A stretch of 64,000 nt of DNA. Source: Perlucidibaca sp. GTDB lineage: Bacteria > Pseudomonadota > Gammaproteobacteria > Pseudomonadales > Moraxellaceae. Both the position numbers and the translations under genes were made by a program. Below are positions 28,177-37,093 of the stretch, one piece after another. The DNA lies in assembly GCA_023265995.1 (NCBI GenBank), contig JAHFSA010000003.1, forward strand, positions 62,001 through 126,000, given 5' to 3'. The notes beneath the pieces are model-generated. The model worked only from the letters and a program-made list of their open reading frames with translations, was not told where the DNA came from and ran no database searches. The stretch's first letter is position 1, and each line of letters opens with the position of its first letter.

Positions 28177-28180
28177 ACAT

Positions 28181-28208
28181 AAAAAACCCGCCTTGCGGCG
28201 GGTCTTTT
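28181..28208 (+). terminator. Intrinsic terminator after tilS
   Basis: AAAAAACCCGCCTTGCGGCGGGTCTTTT. Confidence 0.8.
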
Positions 28209-28274
28209 ATAAAACGGTCATCTGTCCCAAGGGGGAGGCTTGCGCCAACAAGTCCTCGGGCTAGTGGATTCATT

Positions 28275-28949
28275 GTGTGTACAACAGGGAGTGTTGTCAA
28301 TCGCATGAACGAGCTGCAAGTTGTCAGGGCGTTATCCGTTCCCCGCATGAGCACCTATCAGGCCTCTGTGTCAGGGGCTGATCTGTCATCCGCGCTTGCG
28401 CTTTATGGCTGGAATGCACAGGTATCCGCCGCGTTGCTGTTGCCGTTGCATGTCTGTGAGGTTGTATTGCGCAATGCCATTGCAGATGCGCTGGAGGCGG
28501 TTTATGGCGCGCAATGGCCATGGTCGCCAGGCTTCGAGCAAAGCCTTCCGAATCCTGTGTCCGGATTCAATCCCCGGAGAGAGTTGCAGCGTTCGCGTGA
28601 CGGACAGCCAGCCGCCGGAAAGGTCATAGCCGAGCTGAAGTTTGCGTTCTGGCAGTGCCTGCTGACCAAGCGTCATGATCAGCGTATCTGGCGTGCTCAT
28701 CTGGTCAGGGTGCTGCCCAATCTAGATCAGTCATTGACACTGGCCGAGCAACGGAAAGATTTGCATGATGCTCTGGAGAGTATCCGTGGGCTGCGCAACA
28801 GGATTGCGCACCATGAGCCCATCTTCATGCGCCAGCTTGCGCAGGAGTTCATCATAATTACCGGATTGATTGAGAAGAGGTGCCTGCATACAGCGGTCTG
28901 GATGCAGGCCCATGAGCAGGTGAGACAGCTGATTGGAGCGAGGCCGTGA
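28275..28949 (+). CDS. Abi-like protein with HEPN-type RNxxxH motif (candidate abortive-infection factor)
   Basis: LYGWNAQVSAALLLPLHVCEVVLRNAIADALEAVYGAQWPW...GKVIAELKFAFWQCLLTKRHDQRIW...LRNRIAHHEPIF. True start uncertain (28275 or a downstream ATG). Confidence 0.75.
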   Translation: MCTTGSVVNRMNELQVVRALSVPRMSTYQASVSGADLSSALALYGWNAQVSAALLLPLHVCEVVLRNAIADALEAVYGAQWPWSPGFEQSLPNPVSGFNPRRELQRSRDGQPAAGKVIAELKFAFWQCLLTKRHDQRIWRAHLVRVLPNLDQSLTLAEQRKDLHDALESIRGLRNRIAHHEPIFMRQLAQEFIIITGLIEKRCLHTAVWMQAHEQVRQLIGARP

Positions 28950-28963
28950 TGCTGGATGCGTGC

Positions 28964-29280
28964 TCATGAATCGCCTCGAACGCCTGTATCGCATTCATGA
29001 ACTGTTGCGTCAGGTACCTGTGCCCGCTGCGCGGCCCGCGTGGCGTAAAGCTGGATCTCGGCGCTGGTGATCGGATCGCCCGAGACAAAGAGCCGGAAGT
29101 AGATCGGGTTGCAGACATCCTCCAACGCCAGCCGGGTGTCCGTGCCTGCGTGCAGCTTGCCCCGTGCGATGGCGCGTTCTATGACGATGCCGCTGCGCTT
29201 GAAGCGCTCATTGAAAAAGGCGGTGCGCGCCGCCTGCGCCTGCACGTCGAAGCTGCCGCGTATGGAGTCGATTCGTAGGC
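28964..29280 (-). pseudogene. C-terminal fragment of a TetR-family regulator (DNA-binding domain absent)
   Basis: In-frame minus translation LRIDSIRGSFDVQAQAARTAFFNERFKRSGIVIERAIARGKLHAGTDTRLALEDVCNPIYFRLFVSGDPITSAEIQ resembles the TetR C-terminal ligand domain; homology-like sequence stops at ~29280 and no HTH region follows. Confidence 0.65.
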
Positions 29281-29407
29281 AACAACATGCTGTAGTAAAA
29301 GTGGAAGTTACGGATGCAGTGCATATGATGTACTGAGTGAGAAACTAGTAGTGCAGAATACTTTGACATCTGCCTTAAGGTGCAATTGAGATGCTTCTAA
29401 CTAAGGT

Positions 29408-32400
29408 ATGACGGACTCTCCCGTTCCTGAGCCTTTGCCGCGCACGCCTGAACGTGAGGCGCTTGGCGCCATGGGTGGGTATGACTACCAAATTTGGCGA
29501 TCCATTGAGGCTTGGCTGACGCTAGAGGATGACGAGGTTATTTTCCTCGAAGGCGCGGAGGATATTGATCGTGTCAATTTCACCGCAACCACCACTATTC
29601 AGGTCAAGCGCACGCAAGAAGCGGTTTCTCTGAACACCCAGCGTGCGCGGGATGCTATTCGAAACTTCTGGGCAACCTCTGAGCGCTCCCCGGAGCGATA
29701 CATCAGGTATGTGTACCTGACTACTTCAGGTATCTCTCTAGAGCGGGACGCCCGCTTTGGAGGGCTGTCGGGCATCCAGGTGTGGGCCAGTGCTGCCTTT
29801 GACACGGAGCTCGCTGACGCAGTCAGAGAGCAACTGCTCGCAAGCATCGAGTCAGATCAGCCGGTACGCGAATTCTTAGGTACGGCAACAGTCAAAGATC
29901 TACAAGAGCGGTTGTTGCAACGGTTTACTTGGCTCATGGAGCAGTCAAATGTGGACGTTGTGGAGCAGAGTGTTCTCGATCGTATTTCTGATGAGCTAGC
30001 AAAGCTAGGTCAACCAAGGAGTGCTGCGCACGCTGTGAAAAGTGCCTTGTTTGAGTACTGCTGGAAGCAGGTACTCAAAGAGAGGCCCGAGGAGCGCCAA
30101 TTAGACGTAGTGGCACTTAGACGGCAAATCGAGGTTGCAACCACCATCACACTTGAGTTGCCCTTGCATACAGCTACAGGCTTTGTGATGGCTACGGCCC
30201 AGCTTTCGTCGCTTCAGGCCGCCACTGCACAACTTGTGCTGCTTCAAGACCACCCGCCACCCCCGCCAAAGGCACTTTTGCGTCGCCCGAGTCTTGTTGA
30301 GAGTGTTTCCCGCCTTGTAGTGCAGCGTAGAGCAGTGCTCCTCGCTGGCTCGGTATTCATGGGAAAAACAACTATTGCTCAGGTTGTCGCGCGCGATCTG
30401 GGCTTTACGGTTTCCTGGACAGAGCTCTCACAGCGAGATCCTGCTGCCATTGCACAAATATTCAAGTTGCTGGCTCTGACACTGGACCGTCCAGATGGGC
30501 CCTCATTACTGATTTTCGATGACCTCGATACTTCGCCACGAGCTCGTCGTACCTACGAGATGAGTTTGCGCCAACTAGTCCACCGCGCCGAAGTTGCAGG
30601 TAAGTCTCTACTCTTTACGGCGCAGGGGCATACTGAGGCTCTTGGACGTGAAGTGGCAAATTCATGGGGGCTGGAGGTAGTTCAGGTTCCCCAGCTCTCT
30701 CAAGAAGAGATTGTAATTCAATGCGCTGACTTTGGTTGTGTCCCTGCGACGCGCGCGGATACATGGAGTCGAATCATCACAGCACAGACGGGCGGACATC
30801 CGGCCTTGGTCAATGTGCGACTTCTCGAGCTTAGAGCAGATGGCTGGCCTGCTGTTAACTTGGAGACCTTTACTACACCGTCTCTAGCGACCCTTACGGC
30901 GAGGCAACTTGCTCGTGATCTTTTGGCGTCATCGGTTAGTGCGGCAGAAGCAGAGTTTGTGCTTGAGGCCGGTGAGTTCATATTGCCGCCAACTCGAGTA
31001 ATGCTCCTAAACCTTGCTGGGCTTCCCCCGCCTCTGGTCGGTGCATCGGCTGTGTTGGCAAATCTGACTGGTCGTTGGATAGAAGAACTTGGTGCTGACA
31101 AGTTTCGAGTAACTCAAGTTCTGAGAGGGGAGGTGGGCGTCACGTGGACCTCTGACCAGCGCCGTGCTATTCACGCGAAACTTCACGACGCTATCCTTGC
31201 GAGTGAGCCCCTTACGCCTGCAGACGCAAGCTCCTTGCTCTTTCATGCTCTTATTGCAGCAGATGCTGGTCGCTTTAAGTATTCCGTTGGTGTTGTGCTG
31301 ACCGCCAAGAGCGAGGTTCAGAGACAAATCCTTAAGCGCTGCAATTGGATACTTCCGATTGAAATGGAGCCAGGCTCAGGGCTTGCGTCGCTGAGCAGCA
31401 CATTGCCATCGCTAAGACATCTTCAGTTCCTCGTTGCAGAAATAGAAGACCCCAGTCGACTGGAGGACGTGGCAAAGGCATGGCGCCGTGCTATCGGACC
31501 TCGGCAAGCGGATACCAGTTGGATGGCGGACCGCATGCTGTACGACCTGACGATGTTGTCGAAGCGGGTCACGATCTCAATGGAAGTCGTGCTCGATGCG
31601 ATTTCTAGCGCAATTGAAGTTGAGGATCCCTTCAAGACGATACTGATTGGAGGTTTAGCGAACGTTAAGGCGTCGATGGTGGGTGAAAGCTTTGCGCTTC
31701 CGGAGAGTGCGACGCTCTTCCAGACGCTGTTTTCGTTACGTGCTGGCGACGTAAGGACTCGCGAGGATTTATGTCAGATCATCGAGTGGCTTGGCAGACC
31801 AGAGAGCCAAGAGCTGGCCCTTGAGTTTGATCAAATGCTCGACTGGCCGTCTGTGATTGAGCTGGGGGGGTTTATTCATTCGGCTTGGGTGGCAGAAGCA
31901 AATCAGGACAGCCCTGAGTGGGGGTCTTGGCTCGAGCACTTTGATAGGGCTTTGGAGGCATGCTCGTCAGCTTCACTTCGTCGATATGGTGCACAAATTG
32001 CGCGAGCCAAGTCGATTGTGTTGAGTGAGTATCTAGGAGACATGCGGGGTGGGCACGCTGTATTGGATGAGGCGGTGAGTGTATTTGGTCCTAGTGCTGT
32101 GATTGAGGAGCAGCGTGTCAACTTGCTGGGGCAGTCGGAAGACCATGTAGAGGCGCTGAGTGTATGGGACAGGATGATGGAGCGCTTTGGACCCCATGCT
32201 GTTTCTGACCCGTTTGCATACCGGCGCGTTGCCATTTCAGCGGGGAGACTCAAACAATTTAATCGAGCATCTCAGCTGTTTAAGGCTGGCGCTGAGTTAC
32301 TCAAGGAGGGCATGTATAAAACAAGGGTGGGGCTTCTCGTTGATGCCTCCTACTGCTCTTTGCTGGCAGGAAATCGGCGTCGTTGTAGCACGCTGTTAGC

Positions 32401-33421
32401 ACATGCAGTCCTCTTGCTACCGAGCCAAGCATCAGCAGAAGGGAGTAAGAGCTGGGAAGCGATAATCCAAGTGGCGAATGCGGTTGGGCGTCTTTCGTCG
32501 AATCCAGGAATTTTGCGGCCAGATGGGGCTCCGGTGGAAATTGCGATTGGTCGTGCGAGTGAGCCTGGTATTTCGACAGATACCGCTACGGAGGGCCAGG
32601 CGCTACGTGTTGGAATGCTGCAAGCTCAGGCCGCCTACTTAGAGGCGGCATGGCCTGATGCATCTCTCGCCGTGCTCGAGAAAGCACAGGCTCTCTCTGG
32701 CTCAGATAGTCCTATGCTGCGACTCAATGCTTACCAGTCCCTCATTATGAGAGATGCAACGCAGGGAGCTTTGCCTGCGTACTTAGGAAGTGTCATGGGT
32801 CTGGCTCAGGCAATGATTGAGATGGTGGGTCATCGGCACAATCAAGATAGGGATGCTCCCGTGATGCCTGAGAAAGCGGAGGAGATGGTGTCAGGGCTAC
32901 TCACGCTTGGGATTCTCCTCGCCCGCAACGATCCTTTGGAGCTGCTTGAGAGCTGGATGGGGCAGGCTGATGACGTCTCCGGTATTCCGCTGAGTAGCGT
33001 ACTGGATCGCCTCCAAAGAGGGATGTTGATGGCGCCAAATGAGGCTGTATACGAGGCGGCAGAGCTTAGGAGTGGTGACATTGTCATTAGCTGGGGGGCT
33101 GCGCTTCGTATCTGTCATACGGATAATGTGGGGGCTAAGGAGCTTGTGCTTGCGGCGCTACGTATTACGAGTGCACTGAAGTCTGGTCTTGCGTTGTTTT
33201 TCGGGGCAAATCTCAACCCAGCTGTAGCGCGAATGTTTGCAGAGAGAATGGGGGGGCAGTTGCTGAGGCCGGATCAGTTTTCGATTCCATCCTTGGCGAT
33301 TCCTGCGGTTATGCAAACTATCAGGCAAGTTCTCGCTGGAGAAGCGGGCATTAGAGAGCTCTTGGGTGTTGGTTGCCTGGTCACGAGCACTAATGCAGGC
33401 GATGCTCTTCGGCAGTTTTGA
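29408..33421 (+). CDS. Candidate Avs-like defence protein: N-terminal PD-(D/E)xK (Cap4/DUF4297-like) nuclease, central P-loop STAND-type NTPase, C-terminal helical/TPR-like sensor
   Basis: N-term GGYDYQIWRSIEAWL...EVIFLEGAEDIDRVNFTATTTIQVKRTQ; Walker A GSVFMGKTT (30347-30373); Walker B-like SLLIFDDLD (~30503-30529); long alpha-helical repeat-like C-terminus; low-GC relative to surroundings. Confidence 0.7.
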   Translation: MTDSPVPEPLPRTPEREALGAMGGYDYQIWRSIEAWLTLEDDEVIFLEGAEDIDRVNFTATTTIQVKRTQEAVSLNTQRARDAIRNFWATSERSPERYIRYVYLTTSGISLERDARFGGLSGIQVWASAAFDTELADAVREQLLASIESDQPVREFLGTATVKDLQERLLQRFTWLMEQSNVDVVEQSVLDRISDELAKLGQPRSAAHAVKSALFEYCWKQVLKERPEERQLDVVALRRQIEVATTITLELPLHTATGFVMATAQLSSLQAATAQLVLLQDHPPPPPKALLRRPSLVESVSRLVVQRRAVLLAGSVFMGKTTIAQVVARDLGFTVSWTELSQRDPAAIAQIFKLLALTLDRPDGPSLLIFDDLDTSPRARRTYEMSLRQLVHRAEVAGKSLLFTAQGHTEALGREVANSWGLEVVQVPQLSQEEIVIQCADFGCVPATRADTWSRIITAQTGGHPALVNVRLLELRADGWPAVNLETFTTPSLATLTARQLARDLLASSVSAAEAEFVLEAGEFILPPTRVMLLNLAGLPPPLVGASAVLANLTGRWIEELGADKFRVTQVLRGEVGVTWTSDQRRAIHAKLHDAILASEPLTPADASSLLFHALIAADAGRFKYSVGVVLTAKSEVQRQILKRCNWILPIEMEPGSGLASLSSTLPSLRHLQFLVAEIEDPSRLEDVAKAWRRAIGPRQADTSWMADRMLYDLTMLSKRVTISMEVVLDAISSAIEVEDPFKTILIGGLANVKASMVGESFALPESATLFQTLFSLRAGDVRTREDLCQIIEWLGRPESQELALEFDQMLDWPSVIELGGFIHSAWVAEANQDSPEWGSWLEHFDRALEACSSASLRRYGAQIARAKSIVLSEYLGDMRGGHAVLDEAVSVFGPSAVIEEQRVNLLGQSEDHVEALSVWDRMMERFGPHAVSDPFAYRRVAISAGRLKQFNRASQLFKAGAELLKEGMYKTRVGLLVDASYCSLLAGNRRRCSTLLAHAVLLLPSQASAEGSKSWEAIIQVANAVGRLSSNPGILRPDGAPVEIAIGRASEPGISTDTATEGQALRVGMLQAQAAYLEAAWPDASLAVLEKAQALSGSDSPMLRLNAYQSLIMRDATQGALPAYLGSVMGLAQAMIEMVGHRHNQDRDAPVMPEKAEEMVSGLLTLGILLARNDPLELLESWMGQADDVSGIPLSSVLDRLQRGMLMAPNEAVYEAAELRSGDIVISWGAALRICHTDNVGAKELVLAALRITSALKSGLALFFGANLNPAVARMFAERMGGQLLRPDQFSIPSLAIPAVMQTIRQVLAGEAGIRELLGVGCLVTSTNAGDALRQF

Positions 33422-33678
33422 AAGTTGTTGTTGGAGGCCGAGCTATCTGCTGCCCTAATGGCAGTTATTTCCGTTGCCAATCGTCGAGGCTTTGCATCGG
33501 ACGGTTCTGGTTGAAACCGACAAGGGGGAGGTTCTTGATCACAAAGTCGGACTCTCCTGCGAAGAGATTGCTCTGGGTCAGCTCCCGTCATTCATGCCGA
33601 CGCTTTTAGGTCTCGTCATGATGGGGTCTACACAAACCACCCCCCCGTAACCCTCGCCGCAAAATCCAGGACCCCCAC

Positions 33679-33987
33679 ATGCCCCCCACCTGGCACAGCA
33701 AGAACCTCGGCGACGCTCTCCTGGCCAGCGCGGAGCTGGCCCGCATTCAGGCGCTCTTTCTCGCCATCTGCCCGAACGCAGACTCCTCCGCCGACCTCGC
33801 CATTTTCATCCGCCACGAGTCCGAGGGTCGGCTTCATTGCGAGGCCGTCCTCTATTTCCCGCCGGCAGCGGCGGTCATGGCAAGGGCCGTGAACGCCACG
33901 CTCTGCGGCCAGCCATCGCCCCATGACCTCGGCGTGCTCGCCGGTTCCCGCGAGGCGCTGGCTGCGCTCTTTCCACCCGCCTTATGA
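33679..33987 (+). CDS. Conserved hypothetical protein (102 aa)
   Basis: MPPTWHSKNLGDALLASAELARIQALFLAICPNADSSADLAIFIRHESEGRLHCEAVLYFPPAAAVMA; coherent coding ORF with native GC. Confidence 0.6.
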   Translation: MPPTWHSKNLGDALLASAELARIQALFLAICPNADSSADLAIFIRHESEGRLHCEAVLYFPPAAAVMARAVNATLCGQPSPHDLGVLAGSREALAALFPPAL

Positions 33988-34596
33988 GAACCGGCCCAGC
34001 CTGCGTTCGCTGTACCACCACAGGCCGGCGCTGCCGAGGATGGTAGTGCCGCCTAGCAGCAGCCAGCCATGGGCGCCCAGCGGCAGAAGTCCGCAGGCGT
34101 TGGCGGCGACAAGCGCGGCCATGATCAGGAAGAAGGGGCCGGTGTAGCGGCAGTGCGTGCGTCCGCAGCCACGGGCATTGATGATGCAGGCCAGACCCAT
34201 GCAGATCAGCATGGCGACCCAGATCACGGCGCGTGGTGTTTCGGGCAGCCAGCTCGCGGCCAGCATGGCGATGCCGGGCAGGCCCCAGAGCGCGAACAGT
34301 GTGCGCCAGCTGCCGGCCAGATCCTGTTTGTCGGTCATGTTGCAGCTCTGGCCCTGATCCCCGGTGGACGGACTGCAGCAGGATGCCTTGCCGCTGCTTC
34401 TGGCTGCCTGGATGGGCGGGCAGGGCACGTCGCCATAGGAGCAGTACACGCAGCAGTCGCCCGGCTTGGGTTTGAGCACCTGTGCGCACTGCGGGCACTG
34501 GTGGAAGAACTGGCAGGCGTCGGTGGGCATGGTTTCCCGGCTGCTGTGGCCGCAGTGCGGGCAGGTCAGTACGGACTCAAGAAGGATCTGGCTCAT
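33982..34596 (-). CDS. GDCCVxC-motif protein fused to a multi-TM domain, MerR-controlled
   Basis: MSQILLESVLTCPHCGHSSRETMPTDACQFFHQCPQCAQVLKPKPGDCCVYCSYGDVPCPPIQ followed by ~4 hydrophobic segments; divergent from merR-like gene. Confidence 0.75.
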   Translation of the reverse strand: MSQILLESVLTCPHCGHSSRETMPTDACQFFHQCPQCAQVLKPKPGDCCVYCSYGDVPCPPIQAARSSGKASCCSPSTGDQGQSCNMTDKQDLAGSWRTLFALWGLPGIAMLAASWLPETPRAVIWVAMLICMGLACIINARGCGRTHCRYTGPFFLIMAALVAANACGLLPLGAHGWLLLGGTTILGSAGLWWYSERRLGRFS

Positions 34597-34623
34597 GGTG
34601 GCCTCGGGGTTTGCTGTCAGGCT

Positions 34624-34655
34624 ACTATAAATTCCGTACTGCACTACGGTATCAA
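34624..34655 (-). promoter_or_regulatory. Mer-type promoter/operator between GDCC-TM gene and merR-like gene
   Basis: On minus strand: TTGATA (-35), 20-bp spacer, TATAGT (-10); spacer contains CCGTAC-TGCA-CTACGG (34634-34649, plus orientation), an imperfect MerR dyad. Confidence 0.75.
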
Positions 34656-34665
34656 GGGAAATGTG

Positions 34666-35064
34666 ATGGCAGGAAAACTGACCATAGGCCGGCTGGCGGA
34701 TGCCGCCGGTGTCAATGTCGAAACCATTCGCTATTACCAGCGTCGTGGTCTGGTGGACGAGCCGGCCAAACCGTTGGGTGGCCACCGGCATTACCCTGCC
34801 GCGACCGTGAAGCGCCTGCACTTCATCAAGCGCGCCCAGACGCTCGGCTTCACCCTGTCCGAGGTCGCCGGGCTGCTGGCGCTGAGCGAGGTGTCGGCCT
34901 GCGTCGAGACGCGCGAGCTGGCGGCGCAGAAGCTGGCCCTGATCGGGCAGAAGATTGCCGATCTGGCGGAGATGCAGCAGGCCTTGTCCACACTGGTGCA
35001 GCAATGTGGCGCGGATGCCGGCGGGGCGTCTTGCCCCATCATCGATGCGCTGGCGCGGGACTGA
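34666..35064 (+). CDS. merR: MerR-family regulator, mercury-type cysteines retained
   Basis: KLTIGRLADAAGVNVETIRYYQRRGLVDEPAKPLGGHRHYPAATVKRLHFIKRAQTLGFTLSEVAGLL...ACVETR...LVQQCGADAGGASCPII. Confidence 0.85.
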   Translation: MAGKLTIGRLADAAGVNVETIRYYQRRGLVDEPAKPLGGHRHYPAATVKRLHFIKRAQTLGFTLSEVAGLLALSEVSACVETRELAAQKLALIGQKIADLAEMQQALSTLVQQCGADAGGASCPIIDALARD

Positions 35065-35069
35065 CCGCC

Positions 35070-35279
35070 ATGCTGCAGCCCATCATCGGCTTTCATCTCG
35101 ACGAAGAGTCGCACTGGGTCGCCGATCTCGCCTGCGGCCATGGCCAGCATGTGCGTCACAACCCGCCGTGGACCAACCGGCCCTGGGTGGTGACCGAGAC
35201 GGGCAGGGCGGCCATGCTCGGCCACCTGTTGCAGTGCAAGCGCTGCGACGAGGAGCCGGCATTACCGGCTGGCGAATAA
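35070..35279 (+). CDS. DUF3565 family protein
   Basis: IIGFHLDEESHWVADLACGHGQHVRHNPPWTNRPWVVTETGRAAMLGHLLQCKRCDEE. Confidence 0.8.
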   Translation: MLQPIIGFHLDEESHWVADLACGHGQHVRHNPPWTNRPWVVTETGRAAMLGHLLQCKRCDEEPALPAGE

Positions 35280-35386
35280 ATCAGACTTTTGTCGGTTTAA
35301 CATGTGACCTCTGCGTCACAAGCTGAGCTAAGATCGCCGGCAAGCTGTCCTCCAGCAGGCATGACAAGAACAACCGGGAGCGCACC

Positions 35387-36979
35387 ATGCAGAGAACCGT
35401 GGATTACGTGATTGTGGGCGGCGGCTCCAGCGGCTGCGCCCTGGCCGGTCGTCTCAGCGAGGACGCCAATGCCCAGGTGCTGCTGCTTGAAGCCGGTGGC
35501 AAGGGTGACAACTGGCTCATCAACACGCCCGCGGCCGTGGTGCTCATGGTGCCCAAGAAGATCAACAACTGGGCCTTCGAGACCGTGCCGCAGCCCGGCC
35601 TGAACGGGCGCAAGGGCTTCCAGCCGCGCGGCAAGGTGCTCGGCGGTTCGTCGTCCATCAATGCCATGGCCTACATCCGTGGCCATCGCAGCGATTACGA
35701 TCACTGGGCGGCGCTGGGCAACAGCGGCTGGTCCTTCGACGAGGTGCTGCCTTACTTCAAGCGCGCCGAGGACAACCGCCGCATCAGGAACGAGTGGCAC
35801 GGGCAGGGCGGGCCGCTGGTGGTCAGTGACCTGCAGACCGACAATCCGTTCCAGGATCATTTCCTCGAAGCCGGTCGCCAGGTCGGCTATCCGGTCAGCC
35901 AGGACTTCAACGGTCCCGAGCAGGAAGGCGTGGGCCTGTATCAGGTCACTCAGGAGAATGGCGAGCGCTGGTCGTCGTATCGCGGCTATGTGAAGCCGCA
36001 TCTGGGTGTGCGCAGTAATCTGCAGGTCGAGACCGGCGCGCAGACGCAGCGCGTCCTGTTCGAGGGCAAGCGCGCTGTCGGTGTCGAGTACCGCCAGGGC
36101 GGCAGCATTCAGACCGTGATGGCGCGCAAGGAAGTCATTCTTTCCGCCGGCGCCTTCCAGTCGCCGCAGCTGCTCATGCTGTCCGGCATCGGCGATGCCG
36201 CCGAGCTGCAGAAGCACGGCATCCCGGTGGTGCATCACCTGCCCGGTGTCGGCAAGAACCTCAAGGATCACCCGGACTTCATCTTTGGCTACAAGTCCGA
36301 CGACATCAACCTGCTCGGCATTTCGCTCAAGGGCGGCCTGCATCTGCTCAAGCAGATCGGGCGCTACCGTCGCGAGCGTCGTGGTCTGATCAGCTCCAAC
36401 TTCGCCGAGGGCGGCGCCTTCCTGAAGACCAGCCCGGAGCTGCCGGCACCGAACATCCAGCTGCACTTCGTCATCGCCCTGGTGGATGACCACGCGCGCA
36501 CGCTGCACACCGGTCACGGTCTGTCCTGCCACGTCTGTCTGCTACGTCCGCGCAGCACCGGCACGGTCACGCTGCGCGACAGCAATCCGGACAGCCCGCC
36601 GGTGATCGACCCGCAGTTCCTCTCGGATCCGGCGGATGTCGAGGAGCTGGTCGCCGGCTACAAGATGACCGAGAAGCTGATGAAGGCGCCGGCGCTGGCG
36701 AAGTTCGTCACCGCCGACCCGTTCACCGCCGACGTGAAGACTGACGACGACATCCGCGCCATCCTGCGCAAGCGCACGGACACCGTGTACCACCCGGTGG
36801 GCACCTGCAAGATGGGCAGCGATGACATGGCGGTGGTCGATGCTTCGCTGCGCGTGCATGGCGTCGAGGGTCTGCGCGTGGTCGATGCCTCGATCATGCC
36901 GACCATCATTGGCGGCAACACCAACGCGCCGGCCATCATGATCGCGGAGAAGGCGGCGGATCTGATCCGCCAGGGCTGA
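35387..36979 (+). CDS. GMC-family oxidoreductase (choline/alcohol dehydrogenase, AlkJ/BetA-like)
   Basis: [36 protein letters not shown] motif; [21 protein letters not shown]-terminal HPVGTCKMG...[17 protein letters not shown]. Confidence 0.9.
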
Positions 36980-37009
36980 GCAGGCTGCCGGCCACGGATT
37001 CCGCCCAAG

Positions 37010-37038
37010 AAAAAGCCCCGGATAAACCGGGGCTTTTT
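37010..37038. terminator. Bidirectional intrinsic terminator between convergent GMC and AlmA-like genes
   Basis: AAAAAGCCCCGGATAAACCGGGGCTTTTT. Confidence 0.85.
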
Positions 37039-37093
37039 CGTTTCCGCCGCGCGTCACTCCCGGCCTCTCAGCCAGGGGCGGCGCGTGCCGCGA

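Follow-up and report, generated by a model that had tools for sequence, protein, structure and literature searches.

The window, the 64,000-nucleotide stretch of Perlucidibaca DNA analyzed here, carries at positions 29408-33421 (+ strand) a gene for a predicted single-protein STAND nuclease of 1337 amino acids. The reading frame is intact, as the original prediction had it, and the window protein aligns with its homologs over the full length (about 33%) without stops; because this alignment is joined by invariant residues in 46 sequences, the signal of the frame lies far beyond chance. Some 45 full-length homologs share a similar length and domain order. The drop in base composition noticed earlier is also real: GC content is 0.54-0.59 across approximately 28-34 kb, against 0.60-0.75 in the rest of the window.

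The gene lies in a variable segment (28177-37093) between tilS and an FMO gene. Three sister species have convergent FMO and FabB genes directly after tilS; the window has 8.9 kb in between, partly of low GC content, and the protein is absent from all six congeners examined. Just upstream of the nuclease gene, at 28275-28949 (+), stands a HEPN/Abi_2-type, PD-T4-5-like gene (PADLOC PD-T4-5, E 1.1e-19, and AbiD, E 4e-6; Pfam Abi_2, E 7e-6) that bears an R-x4-H motif (RNRIAHHE), and judging by these matches it is probably a separate, second defense gene in the segment. The segment also contains a MerR-family regulator (~34.6-35.06 kb) and a GMC oxidoreductase (35387-36979). Two congeners have other genes after tilS, a sensor histidine kinase among them.

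Nuclease head and STAND switch

The N-terminus holds a DUF4297/LmuA-type PD-(D/E)xK nuclease core (residues 16-105; 29453-29722, +), on which PADLOC, profile matches to solved structures and AF2 fold order agree, in line with the Cap4/DUF4297-like nuclease that had been predicted. PADLOC matched LmuA over residues 16-196 (E 8e-8) and DUF4297 over residues 15-68 (E 1e-6), and across the family the DUF4297 model matched 36/38 members and the LmuA model 33/38. An N-terminal profile of 33 homologs found the solved DUF4297 of HerA-DUF4297 (8xav, E 7.7e-9; 8ziq, 1e-6; 9c1m, 7.7e-6), with the G..YQ, ED.D and Q.K motifs aligned between them. In an AF2 model of residues 1-720, built from 38 sequences (mean pLDDT 87.7; homolog rows from plasmid records were left out of the structure-prediction alignments), helix 23-37, strands 44-47, 52-56 and 60-67, helix 78-93 and strand 98-105 follow the alpha-beta-beta-beta-alpha-beta order of PD-(D/E)xK nucleases. 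Core topology and the acidic...QxK residues place the domain in the DUF4297/Cap4 type: judged by sequence and model, the window protein carries a DUF4297/LmuA-type nuclease, with cleavage of dsDNA as its predicted activity.

The motif first read as an acidic residue followed by a QxK variant, EGAEDIDR...QVKR, is indeed at 29549-29611 (residues 48-68) and contains the candidate active-site residues E48/E51/D52...Q65-x-K67 (29549-29608). Two residues named earlier as central to the nuclease fare less evenly. D54, put forward as a key acid, is conserved in 43/46 sequences but is not invariant, unlike E51, D52 and Q65 (46/46), and residue 67, the candidate catalytic lysine, is Lys in the window gene and in 42/46 sequences overall but Arg in 4/46 (e.g. 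L003, L006 and L022). This arginine, together with the presence of the maltose-system regulator structure 8bob among the fold matches, would suit a MalT/AfsR-like transcriptional regulator of the STAND class, or some other signaling ATPase outside defense, whose N-terminus binds DNA rather than cutting it; we find this reading scarcely credible, as the PD-(D/E)xK residues are kept in nearly all members and the neighbors of the homologs include many defense systems, differing by locus. Invariant in the 46 sequences, besides E48, E51, D52 and Q65, are R16, A18, G24, Q28, W36, A50, E112, W126, W175, R293, G319, K320, T404, H464, R670 and Q673.

A mostly helical linker follows in the AF2 model (residues 122-285; 29771-30262, +). 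The same linker occurs in two other nuclease proteins (L009:9977-11821 and L052:8926-11433), which have the nuclease and linker module in common (approximately residues 9-237 or 8-264) and end in a different C-terminus without Pfam matches.

The switch begins with a STAND/AAA+ NTPase core (residues 290-426; 30275-30685, +), recognized by Pfam AAA (E 4.8e-5), by conserved residues and by a RecA-like strand order that spans residues 294-426 in the AF2 model. Both nucleotide-binding motifs are where they had been reported: the Walker A sequence GSVFMGKTT occupies residues 314-322 (30347-30373) and the Walker B sequence LLIFDDLD residues 367-374 (30506-30529). The Walker A lysine, previously numbered K319, is K320. 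G319 and K320 are invariant and D371 and D372 near-invariant in the 46-sequence alignment. Between the NTPase core and the winged helix lies G463-H464-P465 (30794-30802, +; G in 45/46, H in 46/46 and P in 44/46 sequences), which from its position we take to be the GxP motif of STAND proteins. The winged-helix segment itself (residues 512-570; 30941-31117, +) consists of helices and then a beta hairpin in both AF2 models, the hairpin falling at 558-568 in the model of residues 1-720, and has fold matches in Apaf-1, CED-4 and Avs3. With its P-loop, Walker A and B motifs, GxP-type motif and winged helix, the protein belongs, on the strength of its sequence and model, to the STAND NTPases, and would be expected to oligomerize when triggered. 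Structure prediction, proposed at the outset as a check, thus returned both the PD-(D/E)xK fold at the N-terminus and the NTPase core, and Pfam AAA, the invariant Walker residues and the fold matches bear out the STAND assignment.

Putative sensor and homolog family

The remaining ~690 residues (646-1337; 31343-33418, +) form a putative sensor. As predicted, it is a helical repeat: an AF2 model of residues 490-1337 (mean pLDDT 87.5, pTM 0.78) places an all-helical, TPR-like superhelix after the winged helix, and a profile built from the last 848 residues has TPR structures among its matches over approximately residues 872-1006. Foldseek of the sensor model returned general TPR/HEAT-type matches only (APC/C subunits, OGT and IFIT), so that the target of the sensor cannot be guessed from them. 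Conservation in the 46-sequence alignment peaks in the nuclease and is lowest in the sensor, as expected if the sensor follows phage targets.

The family is widespread. A scan of one genome per species found 50 loci, for which a seven-sequence alignment had proved too diverse as a seed, and the members come from Pseudomonadota, Nitrospirota, Thermodesulfobacteriota, Myxococcota, Poribacteria, Verrucomicrobia and Daviesbacteria. The full-length members are mostly 1330-1450 amino acids long and keep the architecture. In addition, tblastn found relatives in 13 plasmid records, and a search of viral contigs and phage records found none. In the tree, the window protein groups with a homolog from a Janthinobacterium plasmid (SH-aLRT 95), and the clade that holds the two mixes three phyla, a pattern that fits horizontal spread without proving it. 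A Rhizobium plasmid (L007:9983-14022) encodes the receptor as two genes with a 4-base overlap, one for the nuclease and NTPase and one for the TPR part; this natural separation of switch and sensor would help to tell the two functions apart.

The family has no name in the defense catalogs searched (PADLOC and NCBIfam), and an earlier mention in the literature may exist. The best explanation of the locus is a STAND clade that we did not find described: the passages found on STAND or DUF4297 systems do not describe the fusion, within a coverage that does not extend to the original Avs papers of 2020-2022.

Genomic neighborhood and proposed mode of action

Members of the family often stand beside other anti-virus genes. 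The neighbors of individual homologs include DSR2 (L022), Zorya ZorD (L028), BREX PglZ and BrxL (L036), Mokosh (L039), a type IIG restriction-modification system (L038), type III Mod and Res (L025), a Lamassu-like LmuB (L037) and Qat (L008); many other homologs have neighbors without a defense match. The background for this tally is a PADLOC control on 34 other genes of the window, among which only a DinG helicase and a phospholipase were matched. The homologs thus adjoin known defense systems and not conserved housekeeping genes, the setting that would have spoken against the original prediction. At two loci, in Paucibacter (L016:8315-8953) and in a Burkholderiales MAG (L020:8238-8948), a poly-gamma-glutamate hydrolase family gene lies directly upstream of the receptor.

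Among the homolog loci, no neighbor recurs in more than three, and the protein therefore appears to work alone. The HEPN/Abi gene is nonetheless close enough in the window, on the same strand, 458 bp away and within the common low-GC segment, to suggest a two-gene system with the nuclease. We regard such a pairing as very unlikely, given that no partner gene recurs among the homologs and that the only other HEPN gene, of the LA2681 type, is found downstream of the receptor at L008.

We consider it highly probable that the gene encodes a stand-alone anti-phage immune receptor, an Avs-like dsDNA nuclease that oligomerizes when triggered by phage. In the resting state, the nuclease heads at the N-termini would be kept separate by the STAND domain. 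During infection, the phage would produce a conserved protein that binds the C-terminal TPR-like superhelix, and this binding would lift autoinhibition and allow nucleotide exchange and the formation of an oligomer through the STAND domain. This oligomer would pair the DUF4297-type nuclease heads, and the paired heads would cut dsDNA, probably that of the host as well as that of the phage, to abort the infection. We infer this phage-protein-triggered pairing by analogy with Avs3, with HerA-DUF4297 and with the Avs layout: the DUF4297 nuclease of HerA-DUF4297 cuts dsDNA on dimerizing, its arrangement resembling the one in SeAvs3 (PMC11291478), and Avs proteins are organized as effector, switch and sensor (PMC12931631).

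A different trigger can be imagined for the same architecture. The nearest relatives of the nuclease are LmuA and DUF4297, and several homologs are plasmid-borne, both of which would agree with a STAND nuclease that responds to foreign DNA, plasmid entry or host damage by a logic nearer to that of Lamassu or HerA-DUF4297. We judge this to be unlikely, since neither an SMC nor a HerA gene is a recurrent neighbor and the TPR-like C-terminus points to protein binding. For the phage-triggered receptor, we further give even chances to the proposal that the family is an as yet undescribed class in its own right among the NLR-like receptors of bacteria, one that combines a DUF4297/LmuA-type nuclease with a TPR-like sensor of its own and recognizes some conserved phage protein that is neither terminase nor portal. 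The bacterial NLR-like receptors gain a broad family, with about 45 members at full length in several bacterial phyla, for which an alignment, a model and a residue list are at hand. Through its variable sensor, the number of phage proteins open to recognition by such receptors can be tested directly.

Relation to known systems

Searched against the PDB with Foldseek, the model of residues 1-720 had as its top match the Avs3-terminase complex (8dgc, E 3.5e-10), followed in order by Apaf-1, CED-4, plant RPP1, Cap4, LmuA, HerA-DUF4297, Avs5 and Avs4. The TM-score to Avs3, 0.29 by query length, is low, which is no surprise when the hinge angles of a multi-domain model are free, and because the TM-scores are low the match rests on local fold similarity. 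The general Avs layout, with effector, STAND domain and repeat sensor in a single chain, is present. The NCBIfam models for Avs2 (NF041813), Avs3a (NF041816), Avs4 (NF041815) and Avs5 (NF041814) had no match in the window's genome at E<=0.001, and PADLOC and NCBIfam scans of the window protein matched no Avs model, which for Avs1 is the result at hand; one homolog weakly matches the Avs4 model (E 0.008). Family profiles compared by hhalign with three Avs2 and one Avs3 gave probabilities below 2% for nuclease and sensor and, for the NTPase, a weak match to a single Avs2 (probability 22%, E 1e-3); each comparison used one sequence for the Avs partner, so that distant homology may remain hidden. 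At the sequence level, membership of Avs2, Avs3a, Avs4 and Avs5 was thus rejected by the NCBIfam models, and that of Avs2 and Avs3 by hhalign as well. NF041812 is class_D_Cupria, an unrelated family irrelevant to Avs membership. The proposal of an Avs-type or related protein holds as a resemblance, with Avs3 as the top Foldseek match, and not as membership of these four families: for the window protein, an Avs-like mode of action is well supported, and its sequence does not support placing it among Avs2-5, because family models and hhalign gave nothing solid.

With Avs3 (AVAST type 3; 8dgc), the window protein shares the order of nuclease, STAND NTPase and helical repeat sensor in a single chain, but Avs3a is much longer, at ~2080 amino acids versus 1337, and neither a significant sequence-profile match nor an Avs3a model match in the window's genome links the two. 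Avs2 and Avs4 are likewise single-gene STAND nucleases with a large C-terminal sensor, yet neither family model was matched in that genome. HerA-DUF4297 (8xav, 8ziq and 9c1m) has a homologous nuclease core, including the G..YQ, ED.D and QxK motifs; its assembly is driven by a separate HerA hexamer, whereas the window gene fuses a STAND domain in cis. LmuA of Lamassu shares the nuclease and part of the next helical region (residues 16-196; structural match 9nxx), but the window family generally occurs without an SMC-like LmuB partner and has its own NTPase and sensor. Lamassu membership is not indicated, with no recurrent neighbor, no large LmuB-like frame beside the window gene and LmuB models matching 3/127 neighbor proteins. 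Apaf-1, CED-4 and plant NLRs, finally, have in common with the window protein the NTPase and winged-helix switch fold, but where they carry a CARD or TIR domain as effector, it has a nuclease. As modeled, the protein combines a nuclease head, an ATP-driven switch and a repeat sensor, the plan seen in bacterial relatives of the immune sensors of animals and plants.
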